A stretch of 64,000 nucleotides of DNA from Pseudonocardia sp. C8. Lineage in GTDB: Bacteria; Actinomycetota; Actinomycetes; Mycobacteriales; Pseudonocardiaceae. Positions 16,401-36,196 of the stretch are shown piece after piece; positions within the stretch are counted from its first letter, which is position 1, and each line of letters opens with the position of its first letter. The notes beneath the pieces were generated by a model. It was not told where the DNA came from, made no database searches, and saw nothing but the letters and a program-made list of their open reading frames with translations. The position numbers and the translations under genes are program-made. The stretch covers positions 2,939,501-3,003,500 of the forward strand of contig NZ_JACMTR010000002.1 of NCBI RefSeq assembly GCF_014267175.1. The letters run 5' to 3'.

Positions 16401-16404
<4 letters not shown>

Positions 16405-17432
16405 GCCGGGCCACCTGCCGGGCGGGCACTGACCTGGGGCAGCGGCACGGTCTGCAGCACCCGGGAGACGAGGTGGTCGACCGGGACCTGGTCGGCGACG
16501 GCGTCGTAGGACAGCACCAGGCGGTGCCGCAGCACGTCCGGAGCCACCTCCAGCACGTCCTGCGGGAGCACGTAGTCCCGGCCCCGGACCAGGGCCAGGG
16601 CACGGGCGGCGGCCACGATGCCCAGCGACGCGCGCGGCGAGGCCCCGTAGGCGATCCAGGACGCGACGTCGGTCAGGCCGTGCTCGCCCGGGAGCCGGGT
16701 CGCGACCACCAGCCGGACGACGTAGTCGACCAGGGCGTGGTGCACGAACACGTCACCGGCGGTGCGTTGCAGCCGCACCAGCTCGGCCGGGCTGAGGATC
16801 TGCGCCGGCTCCGGCGGGGTCACCCCCATCCGGTAGATGATCTCCCGCTCCTCCTCGACGCCCGGGTACTCGATCAGCAGCTTGAACAGGAAGCGGTCGC
16901 GCTGCGCCTCGGGCAGCGGGTAGACGCCCTCGTTCTCGATCGGGTTCTGGGTCGCGAGGACCAGGAACGGGTCCGGCATCGGGTGGTCCCGGCCGCCGAG
17001 CGACAGCTTGCGCTCGGCCATCACCTCGAGCATCGCCGACTGCACCTTGGCCGGGGCGCGGTTGATCTCGTCGGCGAGCACGAAGTTCGCGACGACCGGG
17101 CCGAGCTCGACGTCGAACTCCTCGCGCCCCTGCCGGTAGATGCGGGTGCCGAGGATGTCGGCGGGCACCAGGTCCGGGGTGAACTGCAGGCGGGCGAAGC
17201 TGCCGCCGACGACCTTGGCGAACGTCTCCACCGCGAGGGTCTTCGCGACCCCGGGGACGCCCTCCAGCAGCAGGTGCCCGCGGGCCAGCAGCCCGACCAG
17301 CATCCGCTCGACCAGCCGGTCCTGGCCGACGATCACGCGCTTGACCTCGAGCACCGCGCGTTCGAGCCGCTCGGCGTCGTGGGCCGGGGTGGTCGGCGTG
17401 CCGACGGTGTCCTGCGACGGAGTCGTGCTCAC
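16401..17432 (-). CDS. moxR: MoxR-family AAA+ ATPase
   Basis: A 343-residue AAA+ ATPase. Walker A is LLLEGVPGVAKTLAVETFA (residues about 55-62), Walker B LADEINRAPAKVQSAMLEVMAE, sensor 1 VLATQNPIENEG and sensor 2 in ASPRASLGIV. MoxR proteins act with DUF58 and VWA partners as chaperones for envelope or metalloprotein maturation. It is first in the moxR-DUF58-VWA string. In mycobacteria ripA/ripB lie immediately upstream; here that position is occupied by a repeat array and accessory genes. Confidence 0.95.
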
Positions 17433-17587
17433 CGTGCCATCCCATCGCGGGGGCCGTGTGACGGCCGTGAAAGCGGAGTGGGCGGACGTCCGCCGTGTCC
17501 GTGCCGTGTTCCGGCGGCCGCTCCCCTCCGGCGGCGTCCGTCGTCGAGGCGGCCGGGGTCGTCGTCGTTTGGTTGACGAAACGCTGG

Positions 17588-17606
17588 TGTCAATGATTCA
17601 TTGACA
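17588..17606. promoter_or_regulatory. 19-bp perfect palindrome, probable operator
   Basis: TGTCAATGATTCATTGACA has 9-nt arms around a single central T and sits in an AT-rich pocket within very GC-rich DNA, about 155 nt upstream of moxR. It contains TTGAC/GTCAA half-sites; a further TTGAC lies at 17573. The pattern fits a MarR- or TetR-type operator. No regulator gene is adjacent, so the cognate protein is unknown. Confidence 0.55.
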
Positions 17607-17624
17607 TCATGGGCACGGCCGAGT

Positions 17625-18008
17625 GTCGATCAACTCTCGGACGCCCCCGGCAGGGCGAGAACGCGCGCCTCGACCGAACCACCGCCGTCGATCTGCACGA
17701 TCCGGCCCGCGCCGGGGCCAGAACGCGCGTCTCGACCGGCGCATCCTCGTTGATCTGCACGCTTTCGCCGCGGCCAGGGCGAGACCGTGCAGATCGACGA
17801 ACGCCGCCCTGTCGATCTGCACGCTTCCGCCCCCGCCAGGGCGAGAACGTGCGTCCCGGCCGGCGCCTCCCAGTTGATCAGCACGCTTCTGCCCCGCCCC
17901 GGGCACGAACGTGCAGATCGACAAGACGCTCGCCCATCACGCTCCACGATTCCGCTGGTGATCTGCACGGTGTCGCCCCGTCTCGGGCGAGAACGTGCAC
18001 CTCACCCC
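17625..18008. repeat. Array of about six 62-bp units containing inverted repeats
   Basis: Units begin at 17625, 17687, 17749, 17811 and 17873, each exactly 62 bp after the last. A sixth begins at 17957 after an extra 22 bp. Each opens with GTYGATCTGCACG or a close variant. In units 3 and 5 the other arm is CGTGCAGATCGAC, giving 13-bp arms around a 24-nt GC-rich middle. Unit 6 has changed both ends together (GGTGA with TCACC), as expected if pairing matters. The middle often holds its own GCCC/GGGC pair. Units 1, 2 and 4 have decayed right arms. The 775 nt from 17433 to 18207 hold no convincing gene; frames through the array translate to Arg/Ala-rich nonsense. Confidence 0.85.
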
Positions 18009-18144
18009 ACACCTTCTCCCGCGGCGATCCGGGCGCGGGCGAGACGGAGCGCACCGCGCCGCTCCCCCCGTCCGGCACCCCGGGCGACCGCGAGTACGCG
18101 AGCCGAGTGCCGCGCCGCGGTGGCCGGCGCTCGCGACCCACCAG

Positions 18145-18207: not shown

Positions 18208-19959
18208 ATGACGCGCCTGTTCAACGACCCCGGCGAGTTCGCCGCCGAGATGACGGCCGGGTTCGCCGCCGCCTCCGCCCGCTGGGCGCGCGCGGTGCCC
18301 GGGGGCGTGGTCCGCAGCACCGCGAGCCCGGAGCCGACGGTGTCGCTGGTCGTCGGCGGCGGCTCAGGCCACTACCCCGCCTTCGCGGGCCTGGTCGGGC
18401 CCGGCCTGGCGCACGGCGCGGCGATGGGCAACCTGTTCGCCTCACCGTCGGCCCAGCAGGTGCACGCGGTCGCCGCGGCGGCCGACCAGGGACGCGGGGT
18501 GCTGCTGTCCTACGGCAACTACGCCGGCGACGTCCTCAACTTCGACGCCGCACAGGAACGCCTGCGCGCCGAGGGAGTCGACTGCCGGACCGTCGTCGTC
18601 ACCGACGACGTGTGGAGCGCCGGCCCCGACGAGCGGCACCGGCGCCGCGGCATCGCGGGCGACCTCACCGTCTTCAAGGTCGCAGGCGCGGCCTGCGCGG
18701 CCGGCTACGACCTCGACGGCGTCGAGCGGGTCGCGCGGCTGGCCAACGCGCGGACCCGCTCGCTCGGTGTCGCGTTCGGCGGCTGCACGCTGCCCGGTGC
18801 CGGCGAGCCCCTGTTCGACGTCCCGGCCGGCCGGATGGGCGTCGGCCTCGGCATCCACGGCGAGCCCGGCATCGACGAGACCGACGTCCCGACGGCGGCC
18901 GGGCTGGCCGAGCTGCTGGTCTCCAACCTGCTCAAGGAGGTCCCGGACGGCGCCGGGGCCCGAGTCGTCCCGATCCTCAACGGCCTGGGCTCGGTCAAGT
19001 ACGAGGAGCTGTTCGTCGTCTACGGCACCGTGCACCGGCTGCTCGGCGAGGCCGGGCTCGAGGTCGTCGACCCCGAGGTCGGCGAGTTCTGCACCAGCTT
19101 CGACATGCCCGGCGCCTCGCTGACCCTGCTGTGGCTCGACGACGACGTCCCCGGCGAGCTGGAGCGCCTCTGGACCGCGCCGTGCGACACCCCGGCCTTC
19201 CGGCGCGGCGCCGTCGGCGGGCAGGGCGCCGTCATCCCTGCCGCGTCCGGGGCGACCACCGGGGCCGGCCCGGCCGCACCCGGCACAATCACCGAGGGGA
19301 GCCCGGCGTCGCAGGCCTGCGGGGCCCGGATCGCGGCCGTCCTCGACGACGTGGCCGCCGCACTCGACGCGCACGCCGACGAGCTCGGCCGGCTCGACCG
19401 CGTCGCCGGCGACGGCGACCACGGCATCGGCATGCAGCGCGGCGGCCGGGCCGCCCGGGACGCCGCGGCCGGGGCGGCCGGGCAGGGCGCCGGGGCGGGC
19501 ACCGTCCTGCGCCGGGCCGCCGACGCCTGGGGCGACCGCGCCGGCGGCACCTCCGGCGCGATCTGGGCGGCGATGCTCGACGCCCTCGGCACCGCGCTCG
19601 GCGACGACGACGCCCCGGACGCCCGCGCCGTGGCCGGCGGGGTCCGCGCCGCCGAGCAGGCGGTCGCACGGGCCGGCGGGGCCGCCGTGGGCGACAAGAC
19701 CATGGTCGACGCGATCGTGCCGTTCGCCCGCGCGTTCACCGAGCGCGTCGACGCCGGCGACGACCTCGCCGCCGCCTGGGACGCCGCGGCCCGGCTCGCG
19801 ACGGACGCCGCCGACGGGACCCGCGAGCTGGCGGCCCGGCTGGGCCGGGCCCGGTCGCACGGGGACCGCAGCATCGGCACGCCCGACCCGGGCGCGGTCT
19901 CCTTCGCGCTCGTCGTGCGGACGGCCGGGGAACGGCTCCGGGAGGACCCCCGGTGCTGA
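18208..19959 (+). CDS. Fused DhaK-DhaL ketose kinase (ATP-dependent)
   Basis: A 583-residue dihydroxyacetone-kinase-family protein. The DhaK half (1-330) has LVVGGGSGHYPAFAG and VGLGIHGEPGIDETD; the DhaL nucleotide-binding half (370-583) has DRVAGDGDHGIGMQRG, GGTSGAIWAAML, GDKTMVDAIVPFA and GDRSIGTPDPGAVSF. A linker rich in Ala, Gly and Thr joins them. Fused proteins use ATP, not PEP-phosphorylated DhaM. Relatives phosphorylate dihydroxyacetone or erythrulose; the next gene, a TIM-like isomerase, favours a C4 ketose. The ATG follows GAGAGGA. It is the first gene of the operon and has the operator upstream. Confidence 0.9.
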   Translation: MTRLFNDPGEFAAEMTAGFAAASARWARAVPGGVVRSTASPEPTVSLVVGGGSGHYPAFAGLVGPGLAHGAAMGNLFASPSAQQVHAVAAAADQGRGVLLSYGNYAGDVLNFDAAQERLRAEGVDCRTVVVTDDVWSAGPDERHRRRGIAGDLTVFKVAGAACAAGYDLDGVERVARLANARTRSLGVAFGGCTLPGAGEPLFDVPAGRMGVGLGIHGEPGIDETDVPTAAGLAELLVSNLLKEVPDGAGARVVPILNGLGSVKYEELFVVYGTVHRLLGEAGLEVVDPEVGEFCTSFDMPGASLTLLWLDDDVPGELERLWTAPCDTPAFRRGAVGGQGAVIPAASGATTGAGPAAPGTITEGSPASQACGARIAAVLDDVAAALDAHADELGRLDRVAGDGDHGIGMQRGGRAARDAAAGAAGQGAGAGTVLRRAADAWGDRAGGTSGAIWAAMLDALGTALGDDDAPDARAVAGGVRAAEQAVARAGGAAVGDKTMVDAIVPFARAFTERVDAGDDLAAAWDAAARLATDAADGTRELAARLGRARSHGDRSIGTPDPGAVSFALVVRTAGERLREDPRC

Positions 19960-35279: not shown

Positions 35280-36196
35280 TGGATGTGCGCCGCCTGCGGA
35301 TCCTGCGCGAGCTCGCCGACCGCGGCTCGGTCACCGCCGTCGCCGCGGCACTCAACTACACGCCGTCGGCGGTGTCCCAGCAGCTCAAGGCGCTGTCCCG
35401 GGAGGCGGGCATCGCCCTGACCGTCCCGGACGGCCGCGGGCTGCGGCTGACCGAGGCAGGCGCCGCCGTCGTCGCCGGGGCGGAGGAGGTCCTCGCCGCG
35501 CTGGGCCGGCTGGAGGAGACCGTCACCGGGCTGCGCGATCAGCCACTCGGGACTGTCCGGGTGGTGCTGTTCCCGTCCGCGGCGCGGCTGCTGCTGCCCG
35601 GCCTGCTGCGCCGCGCCGGCCGGCACGACGGCCTGGTCCTGTCCTGCCGGGATCTGGACCTGCGCCCCGACGAGGTGCCGGTGGCCGCGGCGGAGGCCGA
35701 CGTCGTCGTCACCCACCACGACGAGCGGCTCGACCCGTTCGGCGGCGGACGGCTGCGGGTGCACCCGCTGCTGCGCGAGCCGCTCGACGTGGTCCTCCCG
35801 CCCGCGCACCCGCTGGCCACCCGCACGGCGCTGCGCCTGACCGACCTGGTCGACGAGGACTGGATCTCGGTCGGGGTCGGGTGGCCGGTCGACGACGTGC
35901 TGAACTCCCTCGCGCTGGTCACCGGCACGACACCGCGGGTCGTCCAGCGGATCAACGACTTCTCGGTCACCGAGGAGCTCGTCGCCGACGGCCACGGCGT
36001 CGCCCTGCTCCCCCGCTACTCCACCGACCACCGTGACGGCACACGCCTCGCGCTGCGCCCGCTGGCCGGCGTGCACGCGGCCCGGCTGGTGCACGCCGTC
36101 GCCCGCCCGGAGGCAGCCGAGCGCCCGGCCGTGCGGCTGGTGCTCGACGAGCTCGCGGCCGAGGCCGACGCCGTGCGGCTCAGAACATCCGGGTGA
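35279..36196 (+). CDS. LysR-family transcriptional regulator
   Basis: A 305-residue regulator. The N-terminal winged HTH is MDVRRLRILRELADRGSVTAVAAALNYTPSAVSQQLKAL. The C-terminal periplasmic-binding-like effector domain (about 90-300) starts at TVRVVLFPSAARLLLPGL. It is divergent from the EamA exporter, which it probably controls. No ribosome-binding site precedes the ATG, and an operator-like dyad abuts it. The last 17 nt overlap the convergent NlpC/P60 gene tail to tail. Confidence 0.9.
   Translation: MDVRRLRILRELADRGSVTAVAAALNYTPSAVSQQLKALSREAGIALTVPDGRGLRLTEAGAAVVAGAEEVLAALGRLEETVTGLRDQPLGTVRVVLFPSAARLLLPGLLRRAGRHDGLVLSCRDLDLRPDEVPVAAAEADVVVTHHDERLDPFGGGRLRVHPLLREPLDVVLPPAHPLATRTALRLTDLVDEDWISVGVGWPVDDVLNSLALVTGTTPRVVQRINDFSVTEELVADGHGVALLPRYSTDHRDGTRLALRPLAGVHAARLVHAVARPEAAERPAVRLVLDELAAEADAVRLRTSG

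Follow-up and report, generated by a model that had tools for sequence, protein, structure and literature searches.

A six-unit array of inverted half-sites

The window, the whole stretch of DNA analyzed, comprises 64,000 nucleotides of the 6.24-Mb genome (G000) of a soil-dwelling Pseudonocardia. Between two divergent genes, encoding a MoxR-type AAA ATPase and a Dak1-Dak2 kinase, it holds an array of six units (Table 1). The first five units start in 62 bp steps and the sixth 84 bp after the fifth, which bears out the spacing given in an earlier note on this DNA (five unit starts at 62 bp, then a sixth after a 22-bp insertion); the 13-bp arms described there in units 3 and 5 are present. Open reading frames run through the array in several frames, and our own codon-usage script calls no gene in it, leaving the stretch empty as the note had stated. 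Nor are there CRISPR-like spacers, again as the note had it: the units diverge throughout, with no near-identical repeats, and the genes on the two flanks are not cas genes. Rfam (4227 families) gave no match at the gathering score in the window, and other matches of the window were weak (best E value of 0.02). With a weight matrix trained on 70 units, the six window units among them, the latter score 39 to 60, compared with a maximum of -4 over 932,718 reversed-sequence positions.

The window also contains an operator-like inverted repeat just ahead of the array at 17585-17609 (TGGTGTCAATGA/TCATTGACATCA, 12-bp arms that are 92% complementary), which is unrelated to the units. A tRNA-like gene with the four-base anticodon ggct was found at 35495-35589 by ARAGORN.

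Table 1 Parts of the window array and the genes on either side
Feature	Position	Strand	Remark
Left flanking gene, MoxR-type AAA ATPase (AAA_3, AAA_lid_2)	16401..17432	-	
Whole array, six units	17622..18015	+	Orientation set by better-conserved left half-site
Dyad element 1, two inverted half-sites	17625..17674	+	Weight-matrix score 48
Dyad element 2	17687..17736	+	Weight-matrix score 55
Dyad element 3, near-perfect arms	17749..17798	+	Weight-matrix score 55; inverted repeat I6
Dyad element 4	17811..17860	+	Weight-matrix score 60
Dyad element 5	17873..17922	+	Weight-matrix score 55
22 extra bases ahead of unit 6 (84 instead of 62)	17932..17953	.	Spacing
Dyad element 6, GGTGA/TCACC ends	17957..18006	+	Weight-matrix score 39; ends without covariation in the family
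Right flanking gene, Dak1-Dak2 kinase	18208..19959	+	

The consensus unit reads GTCGATCAGCACGnTnnCGCC, a short variable centre and GGGCGAGAACGTGCnnCTCGAC, namely two inverted half-sites about one dyad axis, followed by a linker of about 12 bp. The dyad element spans about 50 bp and the half-site, GTCGA-N3-GCACGtT-N3-GCC, about 22 bp.

A dispersed family with a 62-bp period

A blastn search with the window array returned at least eight other arrays in G000 (nine candidates scored; E values of 3e-27 to 2e-22) and weak matches in relatives. A pattern of 14 fixed bases, with one mismatch allowed, matched 237 times in G000 compared with once for the reversed pattern, and a sequence-only profile built from 70 units gave at least 204 matches (best 150 of 26,855 candidates scored). 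The weight matrix, at a cut-off of 12 and with a reversed control that reached -4 at most, identified 436 units in 69 fetched G000 loci. Clusters in G000 thus number at least 71, and 67 hold two or more units, a census that is a lower bound drawn from search matches rather than from a random sample; further places listed outside the 69 loci are C2:4153831, 3037577, 3064137, 5385950 and 4174197. All listed places are scattered along the 6.1-Mb contig C2, the arrays are of mixed orientation along the chromosome when read by eye, and the largest has 15 units (L176). Copies on this scale, detected by blastn, pattern, profile and matrix alike, rule out a local accidental duplication. A plasmid origin was rejected because blastn found no match in a plasmid collection; a viral origin was rejected as well, the half-site pattern matching 81 viral stretches and the matrix, applied to 80 of these loci, reaching a score of 6 at one of them against the cut-off of 12.

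A gap of 42 bp separates one 12-unit array (L036 2071-2866, G000:C2 about 5.4871-5.4879 Mb) from the 3' end of dnaA, as assigned by Pfam, and four DnaA-box-like sites with at most one mismatch occur at 1305-1839 of the same locus. Given the adjoining dnaA and these sites, the array is probably in or beside oriC.

The 62-bp period noted for the first five units holds more widely than had been proposed, being the rule across the fetched arrays of G000: of 365 pairs of neighbouring dyads, 301 are exactly 62 bp apart and 327 are 61 to 63 bp apart. Units that match the other strand better still hold the dyad phase, and because of this the unit starts alternate between 56 and 68 bp. Fourteen spacings of 66 to 112 bp bunch near +10 bp, although a phase test was not significant (P of 0.06-0.12). 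Neighbouring units have a linker identity of 54% and a core identity of 84%, compared with 36% and 78% for units of different arrays. The higher linker identity of neighbours indicates shared ancestry, and part of the constancy of the period is accordingly due to recent tandem duplication or homogenisation. However, if neutral indels occur at roughly one tenth of the rate of substitutions, a spacing of 62 bp in 82% of pairs despite diverged linkers is far above what they would leave. We therefore infer that selection acts on the spacing as well. Across the 64 arrays that have at least three units, no conserved sequence was found beyond the first or last unit; the edges are abrupt and none resembles that of a mobile element.

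Distribution among relatives

A two-unit pattern retrieved 26 stretches from genome contigs, of which the matrix found units in seven, all from Pseudonocardia (six contigs of P. ammonioxydans and one of P. parietis), and none in the other 19. The earlier note had named an absence of copies from related genomes among the outcomes that would count against its reading; the opposite was found, since copies occur throughout the own genome and eight of 62 genomes of the genus match the unit at E≤1e-5. A midpoint-rooted gyrB tree covering 30 of the 62 genomes places the eight carriers inside one clade of nine species with support of 100/98. The sole member of this clade without the element is G062, in which a low-threshold unit search gave matches no better than in genomes outside the clade (best E value of 0.0045); it is a natural loss of the element.

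The form of the element differs among carriers. P. ammonioxydans (G061) has arrays too, with periods of 61 to 62 bp (19 of 100 spacings measure 61 bp), and G070 is mixed, with six single and six multiple clusters among 12 and one array of period 72. In G026, G002, G079, G073 and G074, all 34 fetched clusters are solitary units. Thirteen locus groups have both flanking genes common to different species, and many copies must accordingly be old. Numbers at shared loci vary: a PHP-domain/cupin gene pair encloses four units in G000 and six in G061, and an F420-quinone-reductase/amine-oxidase pair encloses one in G070 and seven in G061. In four of eight shared-locus comparisons, the units within either array resemble one another more than they resemble those of the other species; in the other four this is not so. 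Separate expansion is therefore likely at some of the shared loci. Between genes for a VTT-domain protein and SpoU, G026, G002 and G079 carry a palindrome that nine other genomes lack beside SpoU. Six of these nine show the convergent VTT partner, and in G061 the VTT and SpoU stop codons appear 3 bp apart. Single elements can therefore be gained, and at this one locus no obvious target duplication was seen. Single palindromes like those still present in these relatives are the probable origin of the arrays. In G079, the SpoU-side gene and palindrome are identical on three contigs (L226, L227 and L228 on C57, C9 and C58), and the VTT-domain gene is on two of them, which reflects either assembly duplication or a recent segmental copy. 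We found no description of the family in the open-licence literature, PMC6325685 among it, which does not imply its absence from print.

Arrays keep the half-sites rather than a helix

In unit 6, the outer ends read GGTGA and TCACC, as the earlier note reported, and it had taken them for a compensatory change and hence for a sign of selection for pairing. The sequence of the ends is as described; the compensatory change is not supported, and the selection drawn from it fails with it, since among 436 units of G000 a left GGTGA occurs in 25 and a right TCACC in two of those 25. TCACC occurs 31 times in G000, 21 of them paired with GTCGA. When a 16-pair structure is imposed on 70 aligned units, 81.6% of cells are paired, the same 81.6% as after shuffling, and RNAalifold predicted no pair on this alignment. 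Ranking 1485 column pairs of 409 units by corrected mutual information puts no arm-to-arm pair among the top 25, and the eleven strongest all join columns within two positions of each other. There is a weak hint of covariation: when diagonals are ranked by mean coupling, the paired one is slightly raised and comes third in G000, first in G061 and second in a set that leaves G000 out; in this last set one pair beside the centre ranks 18th in mutual information. Arms of array units match slightly less well than shuffled ones (0.592 versus 0.613 in G000, 0.594 versus 0.617 in G061), a difference that may in part arise because units were picked at a score threshold of 12 or 25, a choice that can produce an apparent anti-correlation between arms. 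Compensatory base changes in the arrays were rejected on shuffling, mutual information, arm matching and the GGTGA/TCACC counts together.

Solitary units behave differently from array units. Their mean folding z score is -5.6 (n = 32), compared with -1.6 for 60 sampled array units of G000 and -1.7 for 60 of G061 (mononucleotide shuffles), and 20.0 of 23 positions are paired in the solitary units of G026 compared with 15.2 in G000. Their arms covary, at 0.765 versus 0.727 for all 32 units and, with orthologues left out, at 0.783 versus 0.740 for 18 units, two of whose loci (L041 and L275) have one flanking gene in common (P of 0.002, or 0.0002 with G-U pairs). This covariation fits an RNA or cruciform role in the relatives. 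The suggestion in the earlier note of a structured RNA thus does not hold for the arrays, which pair like shuffled sequences, fold weakly and lack strong covariation, whereas for the solitary palindromes it is a possibility. On balance, what the arrays preserve is a pair of half-site sequences and not a helix. Loss of the hairpin with retention of the half-sites is expected if the sequence is read as double-stranded DNA and if strong tandem palindromes are unstable; a section of the REP survey reasons similarly about heterodimers (PMC3733652).

Gene context

Based on gene calls by the same codon-usage script, 70 of the 71 G000 clusters are intergenic, with an overlap with called genes of at most 3 bp. 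They lie between convergent genes in 26 cases, co-directional genes in 38 and divergent genes, the rarer type to which the window array belongs, in seven, compared with 51, 183 and 68 array-free pairs in the same loci (Fisher P of 0.0005 for the convergent excess and 0.02 for the divergent deficit). The contrast is stronger against array-free gaps of at least 100 bp (11, 52 and 46, respectively). In the 38 co-directional contexts, arrays point with the genes in 24 and against them in 14, which is no clear bias. The 27 clusters of G061 comprise 13 convergent, 11 co-directional, one divergent and two of unknown context, and the 46 clusters of the other relatives 25, 17, three and one, respectively. 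Six of these 46 overlap a called gene by at least 54 bp (L043, L222, L268, L272, L276 and L279); the overlap at L043 is probably due to an over-long gene call. No Pfam family has more than three members among the flanking proteins (127 of 134 listed proteins scanned), which argues against an ordinary regulon, and a regulon of related genes was rejected on this ground.

An element lies between homologues of scpA and scpB, which encode condensin subunits, in five genomes, namely G026, G079, G070, G061 and G073, the genes being assigned by flank matches and, on L043, by Pfam. These loci (L043, L276, L273, L262 and L280) hold 1, 1, 5, 3 and 1 units, respectively.

Discussion

We propose that the window array is a member of a clade-specific, REP-like family whose dyads would be in-phase binding sites for a putative dimeric protein that forms a boundary, a reading to which we give close to an even chance. 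The dyad has been multiplied in tandem with its linker of about 12 bp in G000 and P. ammonioxydans, probably by the route from single palindromes described above. A recurrence of 62 bp corresponds to about six helical turns, so that all dyads would be exposed on one face of the helix. A sequence-specific, dimeric DNA-binding protein peculiar to the clade may sit on each dyad, and adjacent dimers could cooperate, turning the array into a block of nucleoprotein in the intergenic gap, most often downstream of gene 3' ends. Such a block might act as a transcription roadblock, a supercoil barrier or a nucleoid anchor. The position between gene ends suggests the boundary role, and we infer the protein, its cooperativity and the boundary function alike. 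Among the three guesses of the earlier note, which were a REP-like family, a structured RNA and a protein-binding array, the last is the best supported, the protein itself being putative.

The main rival is a functionless selfish repeat: a REPIN-like, non-autonomous element, mobilised by a putative transposase, which is tolerated between genes away from promoters and builds arrays by slippage or tandem insertion with no function for the host. The patchy loci, such as the SpoU palindrome found in three genomes and not in nine others, and the relatedness of neighbouring units are what such an element would leave, and the intergenic placement with a 3'-end bias is that of REPs as parts of the survey describe them (PMC3733652). 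However, the eight carriers lack a RAYT, the 64 arrays have no conserved flanking sequence, the single locus read for it has no obvious target duplication, and the 13 shared locus groups show that many copies are old; furthermore, the core is conserved and the period largely kept while the linkers diverge. We consider this explanation possible and rather less than likely. It is more doubtful still that the family is one of RNA hairpins, serving as bidirectional terminators or as stabilisers of mRNA 3' ends between convergent genes and duplicated later. The strong folding and arm covariation of the solitary elements, and the convergent position of more than half of the clusters in relatives other than G061, make an RNA terminator plausible for the solitary form. 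The arrays, which pair as if shuffled, speak against the hairpin family as a whole, as do sequence conservation far beyond the needs of a terminator, a consensus without a T-run and the divergent genes around the window array itself.

A recognition sequence for DNA uptake or for a replication-related process, with the half-site as the functional unit, was considered because of the inverted pairs at gene ends and the array adjoining dnaA. Uptake sequences can double as terminators. However, half-sites with at most two mismatches number 83, 73, 99 and 107 in G026, G002, G079 and G070, compared with 106 in G062 and 100 in G001, neither of which carries the element; beyond the called units, 34 strong half-sites occur in 866 kb of loci, mostly beside arrays, and the mixed orientation of the arrays along the chromosome also weighs against the idea. 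An uptake-type sequence was rejected for the lack of an excess of single half-sites in the genomes with solitary elements, and we regard the broader explanation as very improbable.

Returning to phased dyads bound by a putative dimeric protein, a wider and more speculative extension, which we think on the whole doubtful, is that the family may amount to a chromosome-wide architecture of the clade's own. Some 70 or more arrays, about one per 80-90 kb and one of them beside dnaA, would then be bound by a putative cooperative protein of the clade to set up boundaries from one transcription unit to the next, having been amplified in tandem from solitary, terminator-like palindromes. Repeats between bacterial genes are usually classed as REP/RAYT parasites or as RNA hairpins. 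The present family lacks RAYT and drops the hairpin while retaining its half-sites and a largely strict period, and related species have single palindromes or arrays at matching loci. The idea of binding sites that organise the chromosome can be tested directly, given a probe, a period, element-free loci and a close relative without the family (G062).

Comparison with known repeat systems

Parts of the REP, BIME and REPIN literature distinguish superfamilies tagged with GTAG and CGTC (PMC3733652, PMC2817692), and sections of the survey describe REPs as intergenic with a bias to gene 3' ends and CGTC REPs as having no dedicated transposase (PMC3733652); the main text of that survey contains neither Pseudonocardia nor Frankia nor "actino-". 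Several features are shared with the systems so described: short inverted repeats occur in many copies per genome, in intergenic, mainly convergent or co-directional gaps, and units of opposite orientation stand at regular spacing, in large groups in some genomes. The same intergenic placement and the regularly spaced inverted units in groups are found in the Pseudonocardia family. CGTC-family REPs have stems of 8-9 bp in those accounts, compared with a dyad of about 50 bp and half-sites of about 22 bp here. Unlike REPs, the Pseudonocardia family has a strict 62-bp period, loses the hairpin in arrays, and has no constant tag and no RAYT. CGTC lies at the outer end on the left in 11 and on the right in four of 32 solitary units, and in 34 and 18 of 406 array units; GTAG occurs near an end in one of 32 and five of 406. 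RAYT (Y1 transposase, PF01797) was detected in none of eight carriers, two of eight non-carriers and five of 14 control genomes, so that a REP accompanied by RAYT was not found in the carriers. As the survey assigns no dedicated transposase to CGTC REPs, this absence leaves room for REPs of that type. The family is therefore REP-like in habit, as the earlier note suggested (dispersed, intergenic, biased to gene 3' ends and arranged in inverted pairs), and is not REP by the features tested, namely tag and RAYT.

In the dRS3 repeats of Neisseria, short repeats flank other sequence blocks, unlike the Pseudonocardia unit, which consists wholly of half-sites and a short linker. The two are alike in forming large intergenic clusters of palindromic repeats, dRS3 being listed as CGTC-1 REPs in the relevant section of the survey (PMC3733652).

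The BIMEs of E. coli differ from the present family in period, sequence and lineage. They are intergenic arrays that have been proposed as gyrase sites, and the Pseudonocardia arrays resemble them as intergenic arrays of alternating inverted sites that may likewise bind a topology-related protein.
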